Shown one piece after another: positions 1 to 62,883 of a stretch of DNA of 64,000 nt. The stretch lies in NCBI RefSeq assembly GCF_024713975.1, contig NC_091096.1:18822458-18886457 (forward strand), written 5' to 3'. The notes beneath the pieces are model-generated. The model ran no database searches and was not told the origin of the DNA. It worked only from the letters and a program-made list of their open reading frames with translations. The position numbers were made by a program, and so were the translations under genes. Source of the stretch: Paralichthys olivaceus. Taxonomy: Eukaryota; Chordata; Actinopteri; Pleuronectiformes; Paralichthyidae. Position 1 is the first letter of the stretch. Every line of letters begins with the position of its first letter.

Positions 1-1110
1 ATCCTTGTCCTGGGTGCTTTGGCTCAGGAGGTTTCCAGCCAGTAGGACCCTGGAAATGGTTGCTGCTCCACTCTGCTCCCCCTGGTCCCCGAGCTGACCA
101 GTTACCATGTCAACAAGCAGCTGCAGCCCCAGCATACTGTCGGCATGAACACTGCCAAGACCAAGTCCTGAGGCCAGGAGCACAAACCTGAAAACAGACA
201 AAACCAATAGAATCTATTTTCCCAAAAAAATGGGATTTGATGTGTGTGTGTGTGTGTGTTTACCTGTCTGAGCTGAGTGCAGGCCTTGCTGTCTGCAAAG
301 GAAGATCAGCTGTGCAGAAGTCCTCAACTGTGAACTTCCCATCATTCTTCTCAGCTCCATATATAGCAATAATGCTTCCTAGGAGAGAGAACAGAAAACA
401 CGATGGTATACAAGAGATATGTCACAGATCATCATGTGACATACTGGACATAAGATGCTGACCTGTGATACACCTGTCTCTCTCGATTTTGCCCTCTAGC
501 TTAATTCTCTGGAGCTCGTCTTCCAATATCAACTCATCTGTGTCACTGATGTATTTTGCTCGTGCAGGCTGGGGCAGCAGGTTGTGCTGCAAAAGGAAAA
601 GAAAACACTGAGATGGTGCACGACAGAGCTCATTCCATTGATGCTGAATTTAGCATCTACCTCCTTTACCTACCTCCTCACTGATCTCTTTAAGAATAGA
701 TGGCTGCAACTCCATGCGCTTGAACACAGTGCCCACAATGCAACACTGCTCACCCATCTGAAGATCACACAAATTCCTGATGGGCACATCTGATCCTGGA
801 AAAAGACAAACAAGATGTGACGATACATGGATATGATAACATAACAACCACCAAGATGTATGTAAGAAAGTGTGCTGGGCCTACCCCATTTCTGCTGGGC
901 TCTCTCTGACAGCAGGGGCCTCATCTGCATGAGTCGAGCTGCGTAGATGTGAGCATACTGGCGACTGAAGCTTCTCTCCCCGAGTGAGTAGCGCTCAGAG
1001 CAGGGAGTGAAGGCCAGAGAGGTCCGCTCGAACACCGGCCCCTGGTCCTCGGAGGCAGGGCGGCAGAGCAGAGAGGAGCCCTCCTTCTGGGCGCTCAGGT
1101 CGGAGAACAT
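1..1110 (-). CDS. pold2: DNA polymerase delta subunit 2, 5' coding part (partial at left edge)
   Basis: This is the B subunit of replicative DNA polymerase delta, which links the catalytic subunit to the rest of the holoenzyme in the nucleus. Coding exons read on the minus strand are 1110-885, 795-674, 586-463, 378-264 and 187-1, and the gene continues beyond base 1. The ATG at 1110-1108 opens [11 protein letters not shown], matching the vertebrate N-terminus. Family landmarks follow: [18 protein letters not shown], then [20 protein letters not shown], then [14 protein letters not shown], then [14 protein letters not shown], then [16 protein letters not shown]. These fall in the OB-fold region and the start of the inactive phosphoesterase domain. 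Exon 3 uses the donor after base 463, because an earlier GT at 473-472 would shift the frame into a stop. A splice acceptor at 1119-1118 shows that an upstream noncoding exon exists. The identification rests on continuous similarity to human POLD2 across all five exons. Confidence 0.95.
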
Positions 1111-1316
1111 GACCGTCCTGAGGCACACACAGTGGAGAGGGTAGTGGTGATCGACCTTCTCTATTACATGCACACTTCATGACTACCATGTATATCTAAG
1201 AAGGGGATTTAACAGAGCACGACCAGGTTTTATCCTGAGGTTGATGACAGCCGCATGAGCTACACCAAAACATGTCGACTGTTTTTTAAGAATACCACTA
1301 ATGAAACAGATCTCAC

Positions 1317-1445
1317 CTTGGAAGAAGGAAAATCAATCTGCAGCCGTGGTCCGAGTTTGACAGATGTGCGGTTCTAAGTTATTTATGTTCAGATTGTTTT
1401 CCTTCTCAGGGAGCGAAAGTGTCACTTCCCGCGAAATCATCCGCT
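1317..1445 (-). other. pold2: pold2 noncoding first exon (5' UTR)
   Basis: A good splice donor lies on the minus strand at 1316-1315 (CCAAG then GTGAGATC), pairing with the acceptor 7 bases upstream of the pold2 ATG codon (coding-exon start at 1117). The exon therefore runs from an undefined start near 1440 down to 1317, followed by a ~200-bp intron (1118-1316). The right-hand limit is an estimate because the transcription start cannot be read from sequence. The exon contains no ATG that would obviously open a long reading frame. The whole unit is duplicated in inverted orientation at 5679-6015. Confidence 0.7.
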
Positions 1446-1829
1446 CGACATCGCCGGTTTTTTCAAGACGTATGCGGAACTCTCGCGAGAACAAAATAAG
1501 CTTCGTTTTTCAGTACGTGACGCTGCTTGTGATACAAAAATCTAACGTAACGCAAAGTTTAACGAGAACGAGCTGCACTGACTTTATATATCATATAATA
1601 AACATCTTTAAGTAGAGAGCAGTGCAGCTTTTTTGTTTTTCTTGCTCCGTCGCACAGATGCGACGTCACGACTTTTGATACACACGTCGCGCTGAGATGA
1701 GGTCACAATAGCGTCGCGGCAGCACGCAGGCTCGCCATTTTCGCAGCTCTTTGTACGCCACCGTCCACCGAGAGTCTGCGTGCTTTCCATTGAGCTTTTC
1801 TTCCACTCGGGTTTAAATCCTGTTACAAG
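1420..1829. promoter_or_regulatory. Divergent pold2 / nono promoter region
   Basis: This CpG-rich stretch separates pold2 (leftward) from the nono-like gene (rightward). Visible motifs are a perfect E2F-type site TTCCCGCGAAA at 1426-1436, the TCTCGCGAGA palindrome at 1481-1490 and a YY1-like CGCCATTTT at 1733-1741 just upstream of the nono start. E2F control is typical for replication genes such as pold2, and the CGCG palindrome is a known vertebrate core-promoter motif. Whether the two genes share one bidirectional promoter or use two adjacent ones is inference. No TATA box stands out. Confidence 0.6.
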
Positions 1830-3152
1830 ATGCAGGGAAACAAAGGCCCTCAGCAGAACCATGGCCCCAACCGCCCGGGAGAGCAGAAGAAGCCCGGGGG
1901 CACGAACACCAACGGCCAGCAGCCGGAGCCGAGTGAGCAGTCCAGCCCCAATGAGGCCTTCACCCTGGACATCCAGAGCTTCAGGAAGCCGGGGGAGAAG
2001 ACCTTCACCCAGCGCAGCAGGCTGTTTGTGGGCAACCTCCCGACCGGAGTCACCGAGGAGGACATCGAGAAGCTCTTCAACAAGTACGGCAAGGCCAGCG
2101 AGATCTTCGTCAACAAGGAGAGAGGCTTCGGCTTCATCCGGCTGGAGACCAGGATCATTGCAGAGATCGCCAGAGCCGAGCTGGACGATACCCAGTTCAG
2201 AGGCAGGCCCATACGGGTGAGGTTTGCGACCCACGGTGCTGCTCTGTCTGTGAAGAATCTGCCAGAGTTTGTGTCCAACGAGCTGCTGGAGGAGGCCTTC
2301 GCCGTGTTTGGTCAGATAGAGAGAGCTGTGGTCATAGTGGATGACCGAGGGAGGCCCACAGGGAAGGGGATTGTAGAGTACACCTCAAAGCCAGCTGCAA
2401 GAAAAGCTCTGGATAAGTGCAGTGATGGTGCCTATGTTCTCACAGCCTTCCCTCGCCCCATCACAGTGGAACCCATGGAGCAGCTTGATGAAGAGGAGGG
2501 ACTCTCAGAGAAGCTAGTCAACAAAAACCAGCAGTATCACAAGGAGCGCGAGCAGCCTCCTCGATTTGCCCAGCCGGGCTCCTTCGAGTTCGAGTATGCC
2601 ATGCGCTGGAAGGCCCTGATGGAGATGGAGAAGCAGCAGTATGAGATGGTGGACCGCAACATGAAAGAGGCTCAGGAGAAGCTGGAGGCTGAGATGGAAG
2701 CGGCCAGACATGAGCATCAGGTGATGCTGATGAGGCAGGACCTGCTGAGGCGCCAGGAGGAGCTGCGGAGGATGGAGGAGCTCCACAGTCAGGAGGTGCA
2801 GAAGAGAAAACAGGCCGAGCTGCGGCAGGAGGAGGAACGCCGGAGGAGAGAGGAGGAGATGAGGATGCGCAATGAGGAGATGATGAAGAGGCAGCAGGAG
2901 GGCTTCAGAGGCAACTTCTCTGAAAACAGGGAGCAAGACATGAGAATGCACATGGGCGGCCATGGGATGAACAGAAACTCTCTGGGTGGTAATTCTGGTC
3001 CTGCAGGTACTCCCGGCATGGCTGCTGAGAATACTCCGTTGATGCAGGGGCAAGGAAACAACAACATGCCTGGAGGAGGTCAGGGCGGCTTCCCCAGAGG
3101 CCTCCCTGGACCTGGAGACTTTGGACCTAATAAGCAGCAACGCAGATTTTGA
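1830..3152 (+). CDS. nono: Intronless NONO-like DBHS RNA-binding protein
   Basis: A single uninterrupted 440-aa reading frame encodes a DBHS (Drosophila behaviour/human splicing) protein, a nuclear RNA- and DNA-binding dimer of paraspeckles, splicing and DNA repair. RRM1 lies near residues 64-133 (RNP2 LFVGNL, RNP1 RGFGFIRL). RRM2 is near 138-212 (LSVKNL, KGIVEY). The NOPS linker is near 213-270 ([20 protein letters not shown]), followed by a charged coiled coil to about 360 and a Gly/Asn/Met-rich tail. The tail ends GPNKQQRRF, where relatives end NKRRRY or [26 protein letters not shown] and the compact N-terminus resemble NONO more than SFPQ or PSPC1, though the start of RRM2 ([13 protein letters not shown]) is PSPC1-like. 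Vertebrate NONO genes normally have many introns, so this looks like a retrogene that stayed intact. I see no poly(A) tract or target-site duplication. An AATAAA follows at 3410. Confidence 0.88.
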
Positions 3153-3409
3153 ATCAAGTCTATTTTTCTTTTCCATTTTCATACTCACTTGATTTTAAAG
3201 TTCGGATAGTGAACCTTAAATGAACTTTGAAAACTGTTGCATGTATTTTTTTCCCTTTTGTATGTTTTATGTGTACCTTTGAATTATTTTTTTAGTACTA
3301 AAATATAAAAACTGTCCAAATGAGCCACATGTTTTACTTTATTTCCCAAATTATTGTATTTTTCATAGGGATAGGAAATGTTTTGTCCTGGTTATGTTGA
3401 CTTTTCTGG

Positions 3410-3415
3410 AATAAA
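3410..3415 (+). terminator. nono: Poly(A) signal of the nono-like gene
   Basis: AATAAA occurs about 260 bases after the nono-like stop codon, in an AT-rich 3' UTR with no competing reading frame. A short 3' UTR of about 280 bases is plausible. No A-rich tract follows in the genome, so if the gene arose by retroposition its original tail has decayed or lay elsewhere. Confidence 0.6.
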
Positions 3416-3430
3416 ACCATGATTCCCTAA

Positions 3431-5678
3431 GATTTTTGATTTATTCAGAACAGACATAATCTTTGTCTTTCAAAGCAGTGATGGGCCATTTATTTTTACC
3501 ATCTTCAACAAGCTCACTCTTTGTCACTTAACTGAATAGAGCAAGACGCTTTCTTCTCCGTGAGGCACATACTATGTCAACATGAGTACGTTTACACACA
3601 GTGTCTCACGCTCTCTTCATTCAGTGCATAATCATTGCTCTCATTCGTGTTTGTGGCAGTGATAAGAGTATTGATCAACTCCCTGGTATGGACCTGAAAC
3701 CTGCTTCACAGGCAGCATATAATGACACAGAGTACACATGGTGCAAAGAGAATGAAAAGCGAAGAATAAACTAAAGAAACATCTTGTATAATTGTAGTTC
3801 ATACGTGGCTTTTCAACAGCTGCTAATAATAAAGTTAACTAGTCAGTTAACTGAAAAGGATGAGTTATGATAAGTATGCACTGACTGTAATGTTGAGTTT
3901 ATAGTCCATGTGTGTAAATTAAGGTTTCATTATCTGTTTTGACACTTTAGTGAAAAGGGTCAGAAGGCCATACAGTGATATATTTTCCACTCAGTAATCC
4001 TAGCAAGCTACAGGTTTGTTTGATTTGTTATATTTCGTAACTGGAAGAGAGCGGGTTTAATCCACCACCTGCCAAACAAGACAGATTTTTAGTGAGTCAT
4101 TCACCAGCAAAGCACAGAGGATCAGTGAATGAAGAATAAAGCTCATGCCCACATGTAGAGTAGCACACCCCTGCATACCTGCACAGTGACAACAACCACT
4201 GCATATAGTGTCAACACAGTGTCCTAAAAATGGGGGCTAACCCTAAGGGAGGCTGAGGTTATAAAAAACAGTTTTGATTCAGACAGTCTTTTTTTCTTCT
4301 TTGTGTCTGGTTTAATGAACAGGTTCTCCACCAGAAAAAAAACAATGGTGTCAATTGATAAATAATCACATAGATAAAAGCCTGAGTTTCATGTGCAACT
4401 CTGTGAATGTATAGATTTTCTTCAGAGTTTAAAGAACAAAACGTATGGGTTTCAGCAGAGTATTACAAATGTATTTAAGGTTTATAGCTTTTTGGCTGAA
4501 CATAGCTGAATCGTGCATGTGCCAGGCTAGTGCAGTGAAAAGAGCTTGGTTGATTTGTAATGTTGCGCAGGACGATCAGCCATTTATCATCGATCAATCA
4601 ATCAAACTTTATTTATGTAGCACATTTTAAACAAATCAACTACAATTCAGAGTGCTTTACATAAAATAATATTAAATTATACTATTAAATATGAATTAAA
4701 TAACATTTACATGAATTAATTTTGGTTGAAAATCTATATGTAATAAACATAAACTTCGATATATATGTTATATGTGGGAGTGTGATGATCATGGCAGAGA
4801 TTTGAGGATCCTGGTATCTCCATCACACAGAGGGTTTTTATCCTCTGAGCCAGTTTTCAGCTGATAGCTATGATCTTTCAAGGAAACCATTCACCTGGAG
4901 TCCAAAATATCAAGATAACCAGCTTGCTCCACCATCCAGCCAGCACAATAAATAATGGTTGTCAAGGTCATAAAGGGGCGGAAGTGTGAGCTATCTGGAG
5001 TTGAGATCAGTCACAATAGTTTAGACAGATAAACAACACTCTGTACCTTGGAGGAGAGATGGCAAGATATTTTTCCACAGCTCTTTCTGTGAAAGGTGTG
5101 ACTTTTTTTTAATCAATGGTCAATCACAGGCTGTTGAGAATGATGATTTGATAGATTTAAGTACAGTTGAATAATAATTCAAAGCTTGCACACTTAAAGA
5201 AATAAAATGTACGTAAGACTAAATACATTTGAACTTGCAGGATAGTATTTTCAGTTTTTGTAATTTAAACCAGTATAGGTAAAAAAAAATGTTCATACCT
5301 GCCAGGAAATCTTTGTATAAATTAGCATAATACATACAATATTACCACTTGTTTCCTTTGAAATTTACCACAGAAAGAAATGAAACCCACATTCATCCCT
5401 GATGAAAGGCAGCATTAATGTACATTTGATTTATCACATTTCTGTCTAATGAGTACAAATAGTACATCTATGACATAAATGTGTTATGATGAACATTCTT
5501 ATTCTTATTAATATCCATGTAATGTTGCAACTGGTCTGATTTAACCATTTTGATTACATTTCTATGCAAATGAATATGGTGCAGTTGAAATATTAAGTGT
5601 ATTCAGTGATAAAAGTAATAAAACTGTAATTCTTCCTTTCATTAGCTGAACAAAAGTGCAACAGCATGCTAACCTGCT
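3431..5678. other. AT-rich intergenic DNA
   Basis: I find no gene here. The longest open frames are short, have no family resemblance and no splice-linked partners. A degraded interspersed repeat lies at 4590-4672. The stretch ends at the sharp boundary of the inverted pold2 duplicate. Confidence 0.6.
4590..4672. repeat. Degraded teleost interspersed repeat ('TTTATTTATGTAGCAC' type)
   Basis: The stretch has ATCAATCAATCAAACTTTAT, then TTATGTAGCACATTTTAAAC and AGAGTGCTTTACATAAAA. This combination of a 'tttatttatatagcac' start and an 'agtgctttaca' end is a familiar high-copy fish repeat. The family assignment is from memory, and the boundaries are approximate. Confidence 0.55.
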
Positions 5679-6015
5679 AAAAAACCGGCAATGTCGAGTG
5701 GATGATTTCGCGGGAAGTGACACTTTCGCTCCCTGAGAAGGAAAACAATCTGAACATAAATAACTTAGAACCGCACATCTGTCAAACTCGGACCACGGCT
5801 GCAGATTGATTTTCCTTCTTCCAAGGTGAGATCTGTTTCATTAGTGGTATTCTTAAAAAACAGTCAACATGTTTTGGTGTAGCTCATGCGGCTGTCATCA
5901 ACCTCAGGATAAAACCTGGTCGTGCTCTGTTAAATCCTCTTTAAAGATATACATGGTAGTCATGAAGTGTGCATGTAATAGAGAAGGTCGATCACCACTA
6001 CCTTCTCCACTGTGT
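5679..6015 (+). repeat. Inverted duplicate of pold2 promoter, noncoding exon and intron 1
   Basis: These 337 bases are the reverse complement of 1127-1463 with no length change and roughly eight substitutions, about 97-98% identity. The copy carries the E2F-type site TTTCGCGGGAA (5706-5716), the noncoding exon equivalent (about 5700-5825), its splice donor (CCAAG then GTGAGATC, donor at 5826) and most of intron 1. It stops 8 bases short of the acceptor AG and before any coding sequence. One end lies inside the intron polypyrimidine region and the other upstream of the promoter, so neither break is a splice site. This points to DNA-level duplication rather than retroposition. The copy would fire rightward, toward npc1l1. 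No splice partner or open frame for it is evident. Confidence 0.93.
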
Positions 6016-7299
6016 ATTTTTGGGACTGACTTTTAGAATTGAGATCAATATAATAGATATAATAAATATAATATGAATATTACTTGAATTTTATGTTTGT
6101 TGCTGTTTTGATAATTCGCTTCAGCAGTTCCGCAGAAGTCTTTTTTTCCCAGTTTGCTTTTACTTTTATTTGTATCTTATTTTTTAACTGGCAAAATAAG
6201 GTGGTGGTGAATTACAAACAAAATGCATGAACTGGAGATAGAAATAACCTATAAATACTACAGTGTTCATTTGTACATGTTTTGTGCATTGAAAATTTAA
6301 AATTGTTTGAGAAAAAAGTGGCTTTTCCTGGGAATTTTTGAATGGACTACGCCTCTCAAGGTTTTACAAAGATGAAAGATGAGTTGGAATAAAATGCATA
6401 ATAGATACATGCAAAAGTAAATGGATGCAGAGAAGAGCAGGGTAAACAAATCAGTGCCGCACATGCACTGTTTGGGTACCTGTCAGTAAATTGATGAAAT
6501 AAAATAGATAATTATTTGTGCTGATAAACCACATGATTTAATCTTTTTATCTGAGGTCACACTGACTTATCAAAAGCAAGGAATAACAACATACGATATC
6601 TGGCTCATTTCTTCTTGTCTTATTTTACCATCTCTGCTTATCACAAATGCAAATGCTTATGCACCTTCGCCCTGATATCTCTGATTTTCTCATGGTGCGA
6701 TGGTGGAGCCTTCGTGGTGAGCTTTATCTTGACTCTGTCCTTGACATGTGATAACAGCATATATCATAAAACTTAAATCAGGTAGGAAGTGATTGCTCAT
6801 GGTGTTGTGGCACTATGACGAACTGTGACTATCATCAGCCTTTTAATGGATTTGATAGATTACGTTAAAACAAACAAAAAACATCAGAAAGAAAATATTT
6901 CAGAGACATTAGCTGATACTCTGCACCTTGGAGATCAAATGGACTGCACCCATCAGTGTCACTTTATGGTCTCATTTTTTGGATTATGGTCTAAAGGTCA
7001 TGTCTAGGCTTACTGTGGTGTGGTGTGGTGTACTGCACTTTGCATCTTTGTGGTATCAAATGCAAAACAACAAACATATTAGCAACTGATTTGGAGAAAC
7101 TAGTGTTCTTCAATAGAAACAGATATACAGAAACAGTAATGACAACAATGAGTTCATTTTTTTTTTTTTACTCTAAGGTGAAGGTGAGACACGTGAGACT
7201 GTGAGACTATGTGAAGAACCGGGTGTGGTTGTTATTTAGGATTCTCCCAGAGTTTCTTCCTTCTGCTTTGACACTCCCCAGCAACCCTATCAAAATCCC
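6016..7299. other. Intergenic DNA between pold2 duplicate and npc1l1
   Basis: This is AT-rich sequence with homopolymer runs. A 60-aa open frame near 6825 has no recognisable similarity, and I consider it chance. Nothing here is supported as a gene. Confidence 0.55.
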
Positions 7300-7560
7300 T
7301 CCCATGTTAATTATCAGACAGTGATATTGATCATTCGTTGCTGTGGTTGGCCAGTCACCTCATCAGACCAGATAAGAAAGCTGAGACGTCACAGGAGTGG
7401 GGACATTGGGCTTGTCCCCATGTTTCTCCTTCCCCAACCCTAACACAGGTGATAGAGGAGTGAATAACACGCAGAGCACTTCTGTCACTGTCTTACTCTG
7501 ATGTATCATCCAACAGGACAACACTGATTAATATACACTCCTCTTTACTGTACCCGAGGA
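7300..7560 (+). promoter_or_regulatory. npc1l1: Candidate npc1l1 proximal promoter
   Basis: The 270 bases before the npc1l1 start codon hold a cluster of sites that suit an enterocyte gene. There is an HNF1-like GTTAATTATCAGA at 7306-7318, a GATA site AGATAA at 7370-7375, a CRE-like GACGTCAC at 7384-7391 and a hairpin-prone GGGGACA...TGTCCCC pair at 7399-7419. HNF1 and GATA factors drive intestinal genes in vertebrates. The assignment here is motif reading only and the transcription start is unknown. Confidence 0.4.
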
Positions 7561-7574
7561 CCGTGACAGGAATC

Positions 7575-10500
7575 ATGGTCCACGTAACGAGCCTGGTCGT
7601 TTTTCTGACTTGTATGGTGAGTTGATTTGGTCATTTTTCTCTGTTAGTGAGTTACTTTTGTAGTTTAAATTCTTTATAGATTTAATCAATTGAACATATA
7701 AGAAAAAATTACCTGTAATTACTGATAAAGATATTTGTAATCACAAAAGCCAACTTCAATTTTTTTTTATATAGGGTTAGGGTTATATAGTTTTTTTTTA
7801 TAAAGGACCATAGATAAAAAAAACAGTATTTCACTGCTTTTTTAGACATAAGCATTCAAAGTTAGGGAAGCGTTCACACAGGCAACAAAGATAAATGCGC
7901 CAAAGTACATCACATAAAGTGTCGTTCCATTTTATGGAAGATGATAAATGCCAAATTAAAAAACAAACCAGTGGAAATGTATATCACAGTGTGTGCTGCC
8001 GTTTTCTTTATCTATTCAAACCGTATTTATTAAGTTATTTAAAATATTAAATATAAAACCATAAACTAAACGTTGATACTAAACTAAAATTGTTATAAAA
8101 GTCACTAACTCTTATTTACTCTTATATTTAAAATTGATTATATTTGCAGTGATGTCACCTTAATTTTGCAGCCACACTCTTAAACATGTCAGTGACAAGA
8201 TAGTTTATATATGAGCACAGAGATTGGGGGGGTCGAGTGAAACTGGGCAGAATTCAAATACCACAGCTGACGTCAGGTGTTTACAGCAGCTCCACAACAC
8301 TTTTCAACGATTGTCCTCAGTTCAGCACATTGACAATATTTGGTCAGGATACACGCAATAGGTTTTGACCTAAAGTGTGTGTGTGTTTAAAGTTCACATT
8401 CTATTTATGCAGTTGAGTGCATTTGAACAATTGTCAACCAATTATTATTTTACATAAGAATAATTTAAAATAAAGCTAAAAAAAACTACTGTGTAAAACA
8501 CCTATGGGCAGGCAAAGCTTGTAAAATAATTGTCCATTTGACTAGTTTAAATGTAACTATGGGCTAAAGCCGTAAACTTGTGAAATATCAATATTAAACA
8601 CTTTTACTGACTTTTAATTTATTTTGTTCATTTATTTGTGGTAAGTTTTAGATATCGTAATCAACCTTGAACATACGCAACTTGTTATGTGGCAAGCCAG
8701 ACACCATTAAGTAGCTGACAAAGGAGGACACAGTGCAGCTCCAAAGTCATTCAGATATTAGTAACGCCACTGCAAACTTCATAAACCTTCACTGCAGCTT
8801 TTTAAATCATCAATTTTTATCTGGGAATTGATATAAATGATGGAGATAAAAGCAAGGCAGGGCCAAAGATCTATAATACACGCCAAAAATAAATGTTCAT
8901 ATTTGAGTTTTAGGTAGAAACTACAGTTAAGATTTTCCTTTTATTTTTCCAGTTAACTAAAGTATATGTGAAAACTCTGTCCTCCCCACAGGTTCTGTCC
9001 GAGGCCCAGCATGAGCCTGGCTACTGTGCTTTCTATGAGGAGTGTGGATCCAACCCATTGATAGAATCGCCCCTCATAAAGGTTCCTGTCCCCTGTCTAA
9101 ACTACAGCAGAGCCCGACCAATTAGAGGAGAACACTACAGGAAACTCAAACAGGTCTGCATGTGCCAATACAGTGAAGAACAGGAATGAATAACTATTGC
9201 AGTGTCGGGCCATTCACTACAAAATGTGTAGTTCTGTCTCGTGTTAAAATAGCACCTGTTTTGACTCTAGGTGTGTCCCATCCTGGACCATGGCGAGAAC
9301 AACACTTACGCTTGCTGCTCCGTTAAACAGCTGATATCCCTGGATTTGAGTCTGGGCCTGTCCAAGGCCTTGCTGGTCCGTTGCCCCTCCTGCGCTGAGA
9401 ATTTTGCCCACCTGCACTGCATCAACACCTGCAGCCCCAACCAGAGCCAGACGGTGCAAGTCACAAAGGTTATGAACCTCACTGAACAAGGCAAGACAAA
9501 TGAGGCTGTGGTGGGTTACCAGGCCTTCCTCAGCAACACCTTTGCAGATGGGGCATTCCAATCTTGTAAAAATGTCAGGATACCTGCCACAGGGGGCTTC
9601 GCCATAGCCACCATGTGTGGACGATACGGTGCAAAGTTGTGTACCACTCAGCGCTGGTATGATTTCCAGGGAGACTCCAGCAACGGCCTGGCTCCACTAG
9701 ACATTGACTTCAAGCTGGTAAATGAGGGAGACACAGAGGGACTACCAAAGGGTGTGGTTCCCTACAATGGACGTGCGCTGAATTGTAACGAGACCACACC
9801 TTCAGGAGGCCAAGTCTGCTCCTGCCAAGACTGCAAAGAGTCATGCCCGAGTATGCCCCCTCCACCACTGCCCCCGGGTCCCTTCAGACTGCTTGGGACT
9901 GACGGCTTCCTTGTGATCTCCATCATCCTGCTCTGTCTCCTGATATCTGCCTTCGTGTTGTACCTCAATGTCTCTATCTGGGTGATGCCTAAGATTAGAG
10001 AGGACGTAAAGAAAGGAAAGAGGAAGGGAAAAGGCAAAGACCAGAACAGTAATGATGTGACTCAGCGAGTTGTTGACCCATCCGAGGTGACGTGCACTGA
10101 CAGGAACAGTCTGGCAGCTCATGCTTTCCTGAGCTCAGAGTTTCGGCACTGGGGAATCCTCATGGCCACTTATCCTCTCACAGTAAGTCTTTTTAAGCAC
10201 AGGATGGCAGGTACAGATCACTGAGGTAAAAGTCATTGTGTGTACCTCTGCCAACTGTCCCGGGATTTGAACCCAATTACACACACTTGTGAATATCAGT
10301 CCCCTAAATATTAGATTTTTTTCATCAAGATCCATGAATTATTCTCTTAGAAATACAGAAATGTGTTGAACATTTTCCTATCTTGCAATGCTGCGGTAAT
10401 TTCAAAAACAATCTTGGATTTGCCCCCTGATATTAATTCTTACCAAAATGTGTTTTTCCTGACCACATGCATTAACCAAGTTTCAGGGTAATTAGTCAAG

Positions 10501-13001: not shown

Positions 13002-13041
<40 letters not shown>

Positions 13042-13071
13042 TGTGTGTGTGTCTGTGTGTATGCAGATGTT

Positions 13072-54482: not shown

Positions 54483-62883
<8,401 letters not shown>

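Follow-up and report, generated by a model that had tools for sequence, protein, structure and literature searches.

An inverted duplication of the pold2 promoter side and first exon around nono in Paralichthys olivaceus looks like an ordinary local copying accident

At double-strand breaks, short genomic sequences can be inserted away from their source as DNA patches, and the class 2 form of such templated sequence insertions carries neither a target-site duplication nor a poly(A) tail, according to the available portion of PMC5110952. Staggered breaks can also duplicate DNA during an inversion, in that sequence from a single breakpoint can come to flank the inverted segment on both sides (PMC5080602, available in part). 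In herring, inversions are flanked by inverted duplications and have been put down mainly to recombination between them (PMC11499932, likewise available in part). Here we analysed a 64,000-nucleotide stretch of the Paralichthys olivaceus genome (contig NC_091096.1, positions 18,822,458 to 18,886,457; hereafter the window), in which an inverted pair of arms made of sequence from the start of pold2 encloses the gene nono.

The locus resembles the class 2 insertions in that a short genomic sequence appears to have been inserted at a second place, with neither a target-site duplication nor a poly(A) tail. Unlike in that class, the source is not a distant region and lies 4 kilobases (kb) away; the class 2 literature also favours an RNA origin, of which we saw no sign at the pold2 copy (PMC5110952). 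With the breakpoints of staggered-break inversions it shares inverted copies that flank a segment, and it differs from them in a promoter anatomy suggesting that the left junction is original (PMC5080602). As in herring, inverted repeats lie around genes in a fish genome; the herring arms measure 8-60 kb and belong to megabase inversions, in contrast to arms of 337 base pairs (bp) around 4.2 kb here (PMC11499932). We infer, with rather better than even confidence, that the pair arose through a single local templated insertion during repair or replication.

The arms were compared base by base after a repeat search of the window. They differ at eight positions (97.6% identity; 1139, 1198, 1199, 1200, 1204, 1276, 1443 and 1452 in left-arm coordinates) with no insertion or deletion, as a sequence-only reading of this DNA had described them, and they lie 4,215 bp apart. 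Identity collapses immediately beyond both ends, so that the ends are sharp. The main parts of the pair are as follows.

1127-1463, minus strand: left arm, apparently the source, with the pold2 promoter side, noncoding exon 1 and 190 of the ~197 nucleotides of intron 1 (repeat and genome searches; the adjoining exon matches POLD2).
5679-6015, plus strand: right arm, apparently the derived inverted copy, with the pold2 sense now on the plus strand (direction of GC-to-AT change and CpG loss).
1277-1442, no strand assigned: mismatch-free stretch of 166 bp with exon 1, the splice donor and the GCGGGAA element (base-by-base comparison).
1830-3152, plus strand: nono, a single intronless open frame of 440 amino acids enclosed by the arms, with RRM and NOPS domains and NONO as its best match in PDB, intact as the sequence-only reading had claimed.

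A chance origin of the match is excluded because the longest mismatch-free run between the arms reaches 166 bp, for which the expectation in random sequence of equal base frequencies is ~1e-91. No inverted pair found in the window is longer than the arms. Among the 25 longest of the 56 inverted pairs listed, the next are TG/AC microsatellite matches of 75-88% identity, which come from dinucleotide arrays of TG and AC at 13004-13060 and 60438-60564. Searching the species' own genome with the arm (588,085,608 bases in 25 contigs, where repeat counts are lower bounds) gave two matches, at 100% and 98%, both of them the arms in the window, and thereby no sign that the arm is a dispersed repeat. 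Further fish copies were sought as contamination in prokaryote and viral collections, where none of the 149 matches to one pattern was confirmed and a second pattern had no match.

The left arm is embedded in the start of pold2, a DNA-polymerase gene. Both the POLD2 match and the genome search bear out the assignment of the arms, on either side of nono, to the promoter side of this gene, its first exon and almost the whole of intron 1. Intron 1 spans ~1120-1316, and its acceptor AG (1121-1120) stays outside the arm, which stops 7 nucleotides short of it. In the other direction the arm covers all of noncoding exon 1 up to the donor, together with sequence past the presumed start. The donor (CCAAG/gtgaga, with the slash at the exon end, which falls at 5825 in the right arm) is intact in both arms, as had been proposed; the right copy has no acceptor of its own. 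Three features border or cross the left arm.

886-1119, minus strand: first coding exon of pold2 (left end approximate), with the ATG at 1112-1110 (sequence; POLD2 match, E value 3.5e-16).
1481-1490, no strand assigned: TCTCGCGAGA motif of BANP type, left out of the copy (motif scan).
1400-1579, no strand assigned: CpG-rich block with 18 CpG in 180 bp, crossing the arm boundary at 1463/1464 (CpG count).

The motif scan agreed that TCTCGCGAGA lies outside the arm. This motif is the Banp motif found near the start sites of CpG-island promoters and is methylation-dependent (PMC9363121); the main text of that paper mentions neither pold2 nor nono. The element TTCCCGCGAAA is the same in both arms, and calling it a perfect E2F-type site was too strong, as it fits the core GCGGGAA/TTSSCGC only and the full TTTSSCGC is present in neither arm. 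CpG density runs straight across the inner end of the left arm, with 7, 6 and 5 CpG in the three successive 60-bp stretches of 1400-1579, and on the inner side of the right arm's inner end there is no CpG in 120 bp (5560-5679).

The differences between the arms have a direction. Six of the eight are GC/AT mismatches, all with GC on the left and AT on the right and none in reverse; the other two are A/T changes adjoining one of the GC/AT differences. Of the 337 positions in the left arm 28 belong to CpGs, and three of the eight mismatches are among them (P 0.022), the right arm having TpG or CpA there; the CpG count is 14 in the left arm and 11 in the right. Because of this GC/AT and CpG direction, together with the CpG continuity and the pold2 gene structure, the left arm looks like the source, with copying from left to right, and the left junction looks original and the right one new. 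If the three adjacent mismatches were one event, fewer independent changes would carry this direction. The divergence of 8/337 (2.4%) would, at neutral rates of a few 1e-9 per site per year and assuming no gene conversion, correspond to an age of some millions of years. The sequence-only reading had taken the pair to be either young or maintained by gene conversion; the high identity of the noncoding DNA holds, and conversion finds little support in the clean run, whose P value is 0.036 for eight independent mismatches, 0.114 for six events, with the three adjacent mismatches as one, and 0.196 for five, for an interval (1277-1442) that was picked post hoc. Alone, the clean run is no evidence for selection or conversion. 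Selection on this central stretch was considered and set aside, since the run loses significance once those three neighbouring mismatches are treated as a single event.

Under a templated insertion, a break near 5.7-6.0 kb would have been repaired, or replication would have switched template there, with 337 bp of the nearby pold2 promoter, exon 1 and intron 1 copied and inserted the other way round. Of the two arms, the left would be the original, and the right copy would then have drifted, losing CpGs and GC; as it keeps the start region, the ATG-free exon and the donor, weak rightward transcription towards npc1l1 would be possible. Consistent with such an insertion, the arm is found in exactly two places in the genome, and the left copy runs on into pold2 exon 2 through the acceptor of that exon. 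No word of 5-12 bases is common to the 30-bp flanks of the right arm, as a target-site duplication would be, and direct reading of the flanks showed no poly(A) tract at the insert, the run of six A at its inner end being present in the source as well. The lack of a target-site duplication and of any tail beyond the source's own A run rules out an L1-type insertion of an RNA copy. A transposable element with terminal inverted repeats is ruled out by the two genome matches only, the lack of flank duplication and the identity of the enclosed gene as nono. Dispersed repeats hidden at the arm ends were also rejected: a search with 3150-6800 gave 40 scored of 42 candidates, namely the segment itself, the left arm and 38 matches to ~4587-4705. 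This last interval is a dispersed-repeat fragment that does not lie at an arm end and has at least 38 further matches in the genome.

To place the pair among other duplications, we read 195 kb in four 50-kb blocks, all at 8.0 Mb on contigs 1-4. A single pair in the sample reached 200 bp and 90% identity, a direct repeat of 405-410 bp at 97.6% with copies 984 bp apart (L026:4448-4852 and L026:5836-6245), present only twice in the genome. No inverted pair above these thresholds was found in the 195 kb of the four blocks; a weaker inverted pair measured 158 bp at 80%. As so little DNA already held another local duplication, in two copies and comparable in size and identity, the pold2 arm duplication looks ordinary, and young local duplications of about this size do not look rare in this genome, as judged from a small sample and from the direct orientation only.

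To the right of the copy lies the cholesterol-transporter gene npc1l1, on the plus strand. Its exon at 9271-10224 matches NPC1L1 (E value 3.8e-71), exon 2 starts at 8992, and the pold2 sense of the right arm faces the gene, with the presumed first npc1l1 coding exon ~1.56 kb further on. The following features bear on possible transcription from the copy.

5710-5716, plus strand: GCGGGAA (E2F-core) element in the right arm (motif scan).
5826-5827, plus strand: GT of the kept pold2 splice donor in the right arm (sequence).
7256-7281, plus strand: candidate acceptor upstream of the npc1l1 ATG, a hypothetical partner for the orphan donor (simple pyrimidine rule).
7575-7616, plus strand: presumed first coding exon of npc1l1, the gene that follows the copy on its right (sequence, with the NPC1L1 exon match given above).

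The pyrimidine rule gave candidate acceptors before the npc1l1 ATG at 7281, 7317 and 7448. It is crude: although it called seven sites in 6016-9010, the exon 2 acceptor of npc1l1 at 8991 was not among them, and its list serves only as a hint.

Several points weigh against the templated insertion. Its direction and junction chemistry are deduced from this one genome; an inversion with staggered breaks leaves an identical footprint; the other local duplication found was direct, with inverted pairs at the above thresholds in none of the four sampled blocks; and selection is one possible reading of the lack of mismatches in exon 1, donor and GCGGGAA, though at P 0.04 to 0.11. The foremost rival, which the sequence-only reading had not raised, is that 1464-5678 underwent a small inversion whose breaks were staggered at one end; the overhang would have been filled in on both sides and nono flipped relative to pold2. 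Equal inverted arms at both ends of a segment are exactly the geometry that this predicts, and the available portion of PMC5080602 describes Drosophila inversions with duplications at both ends, sometimes from one breakpoint only. Under such an inversion, however, the CpG block and TCTCGCGAGA beside the left arm would have been newly joined to pold2 by coincidence. CpG density continues across the inner end of the left arm and falls to zero at that of the right arm, and the head-to-head order of nono and pold2 is a plausible older arrangement. We prefer the templated insertion because of this promoter anatomy at the left junction and hold the inversion to be unlikely, though a serious contender. 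Very improbable are arms that are old and kept alike by gene conversion: the central run is indeed clean, with differences towards the arm ends, but its length is only weakly unusual and the one-way change fits plain decay of a young copy. Inverted duplicates can also arise in assemblies, and the pair might then be an artefact or an unresolved haplotype of a single real copy; with eight differences that show a mutational direction and different unique flanks on both arms, we consider this extremely unlikely.

The rival concerning function holds that the right arm is a working second promoter with a 5' untranslated exon, whose rightward transcript is noncoding or joined to npc1l1. The start region, ATG-free exon 1, donor and GCGGGAA core are unchanged in it, npc1l1 is the next gene rightward, and the three candidate acceptors precede its ATG. 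Against these stand the loss of CpGs and the absence from the right arm of TCTCGCGAGA, part of the CpG-rich block and the pold2 acceptor, because of which strong promoter activity is less likely. Moreover, AATAAA/ATTAAA signals lie at 6061, 6388 and 6498, inside the would-be intron; splicing of the donor into npc1l1 exon 2 would leave out the exon presumed to encode the signal peptide, and the ATG encountered first in such a transcript would not be in the npc1l1 frame. We therefore regard a working second promoter as improbable, and more doubtful still is the idea that pold2 promoter, 5' exon and donor were copied as a cassette, by which npc1l1 would have gained a second, cell-cycle-type promoter and an untranslated exon in one repair event. 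To judge from its sequence, the copy most likely has weak or no transcription, and little or no function is the default. The sequences themselves show the two copies, their ends, the direction of the differences and the genes present, and the repair mechanism, the age and the lack of function are our inferences. Double-stranded RNA between transcripts of the two arms was rejected on logical grounds: exon 1 would be in the same sense in both transcripts. Recombination between 337-bp arms at 97.6% identity, by which the enclosed segment might invert as the sequence-only reading had suggested, might occur, though only rarely.

The enclosed gene is of interest in its own right. A protein search of the genome with nono gave 11 matches: nono itself in one piece, four on contig C20, four on C24 and two weak ones on C22 (32-35% identity). 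One of the C20 pieces has SFPQ as its best match (1.3e-53, versus 6.9e-47 for NONO) and one of the C24 pieces has PSPC1. A DNA search with 1464-3450 gave seven matches, namely itself, four on C20 and two on C24. No intron-bearing nono was found by these protein and DNA searches of the genome, in which sfpq (C20) and pspc1 (C24) are split in pieces. Mammalian NONO has introns, and the parent nono presumably had them too, to go by the paralogues. With no intron of its own, no other nono found in the assembly and both sfpq and pspc1 in pieces, the gene is a probable orphan retrogene, one that may have outlived its parent, and stands head-to-head with pold2. No poly(A) tract was noticed after the gene on reading past 3410, a stretch given no systematic search. 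Among the titles and abstract openings listed, with most subscription papers outside the search, no paper on a fish nono retrogene was found; orphan retrogenes in teleosts, an intronless zebrafish nono and a pold2/nono bidirectional promoter had no literature match either, and vertebrate orphan retrogenes with the parental gene lost returned a match only on brown algae. From the left arm to the nono ATG, 367 bp hold two CpG-rich blocks, a CpG-free gap (1580-1639) and the TCTCGCGAGA motif. There is also a CCATTTT at 1735, which we take to be a YY1-like element. By its composition, 1464-1900 is probably a bidirectional promoter region of pold2 and nono.

Taken as a whole, the pold2 promoter duplication appears to be a copying accident of an ordinary kind and fairly recent date, most likely with little effect. 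It illustrates cleanly and on a small scale that local DNA copying can bring a promoter, an exon and a splice donor next to a different gene; the copy is decaying. If the copy were transcribed into npc1l1, this would be the gain of a promoter in one step and would matter more. A more useful lead may be nono, an intronless and apparently parentless gene that has its intergenic promoter region in common with pold2.

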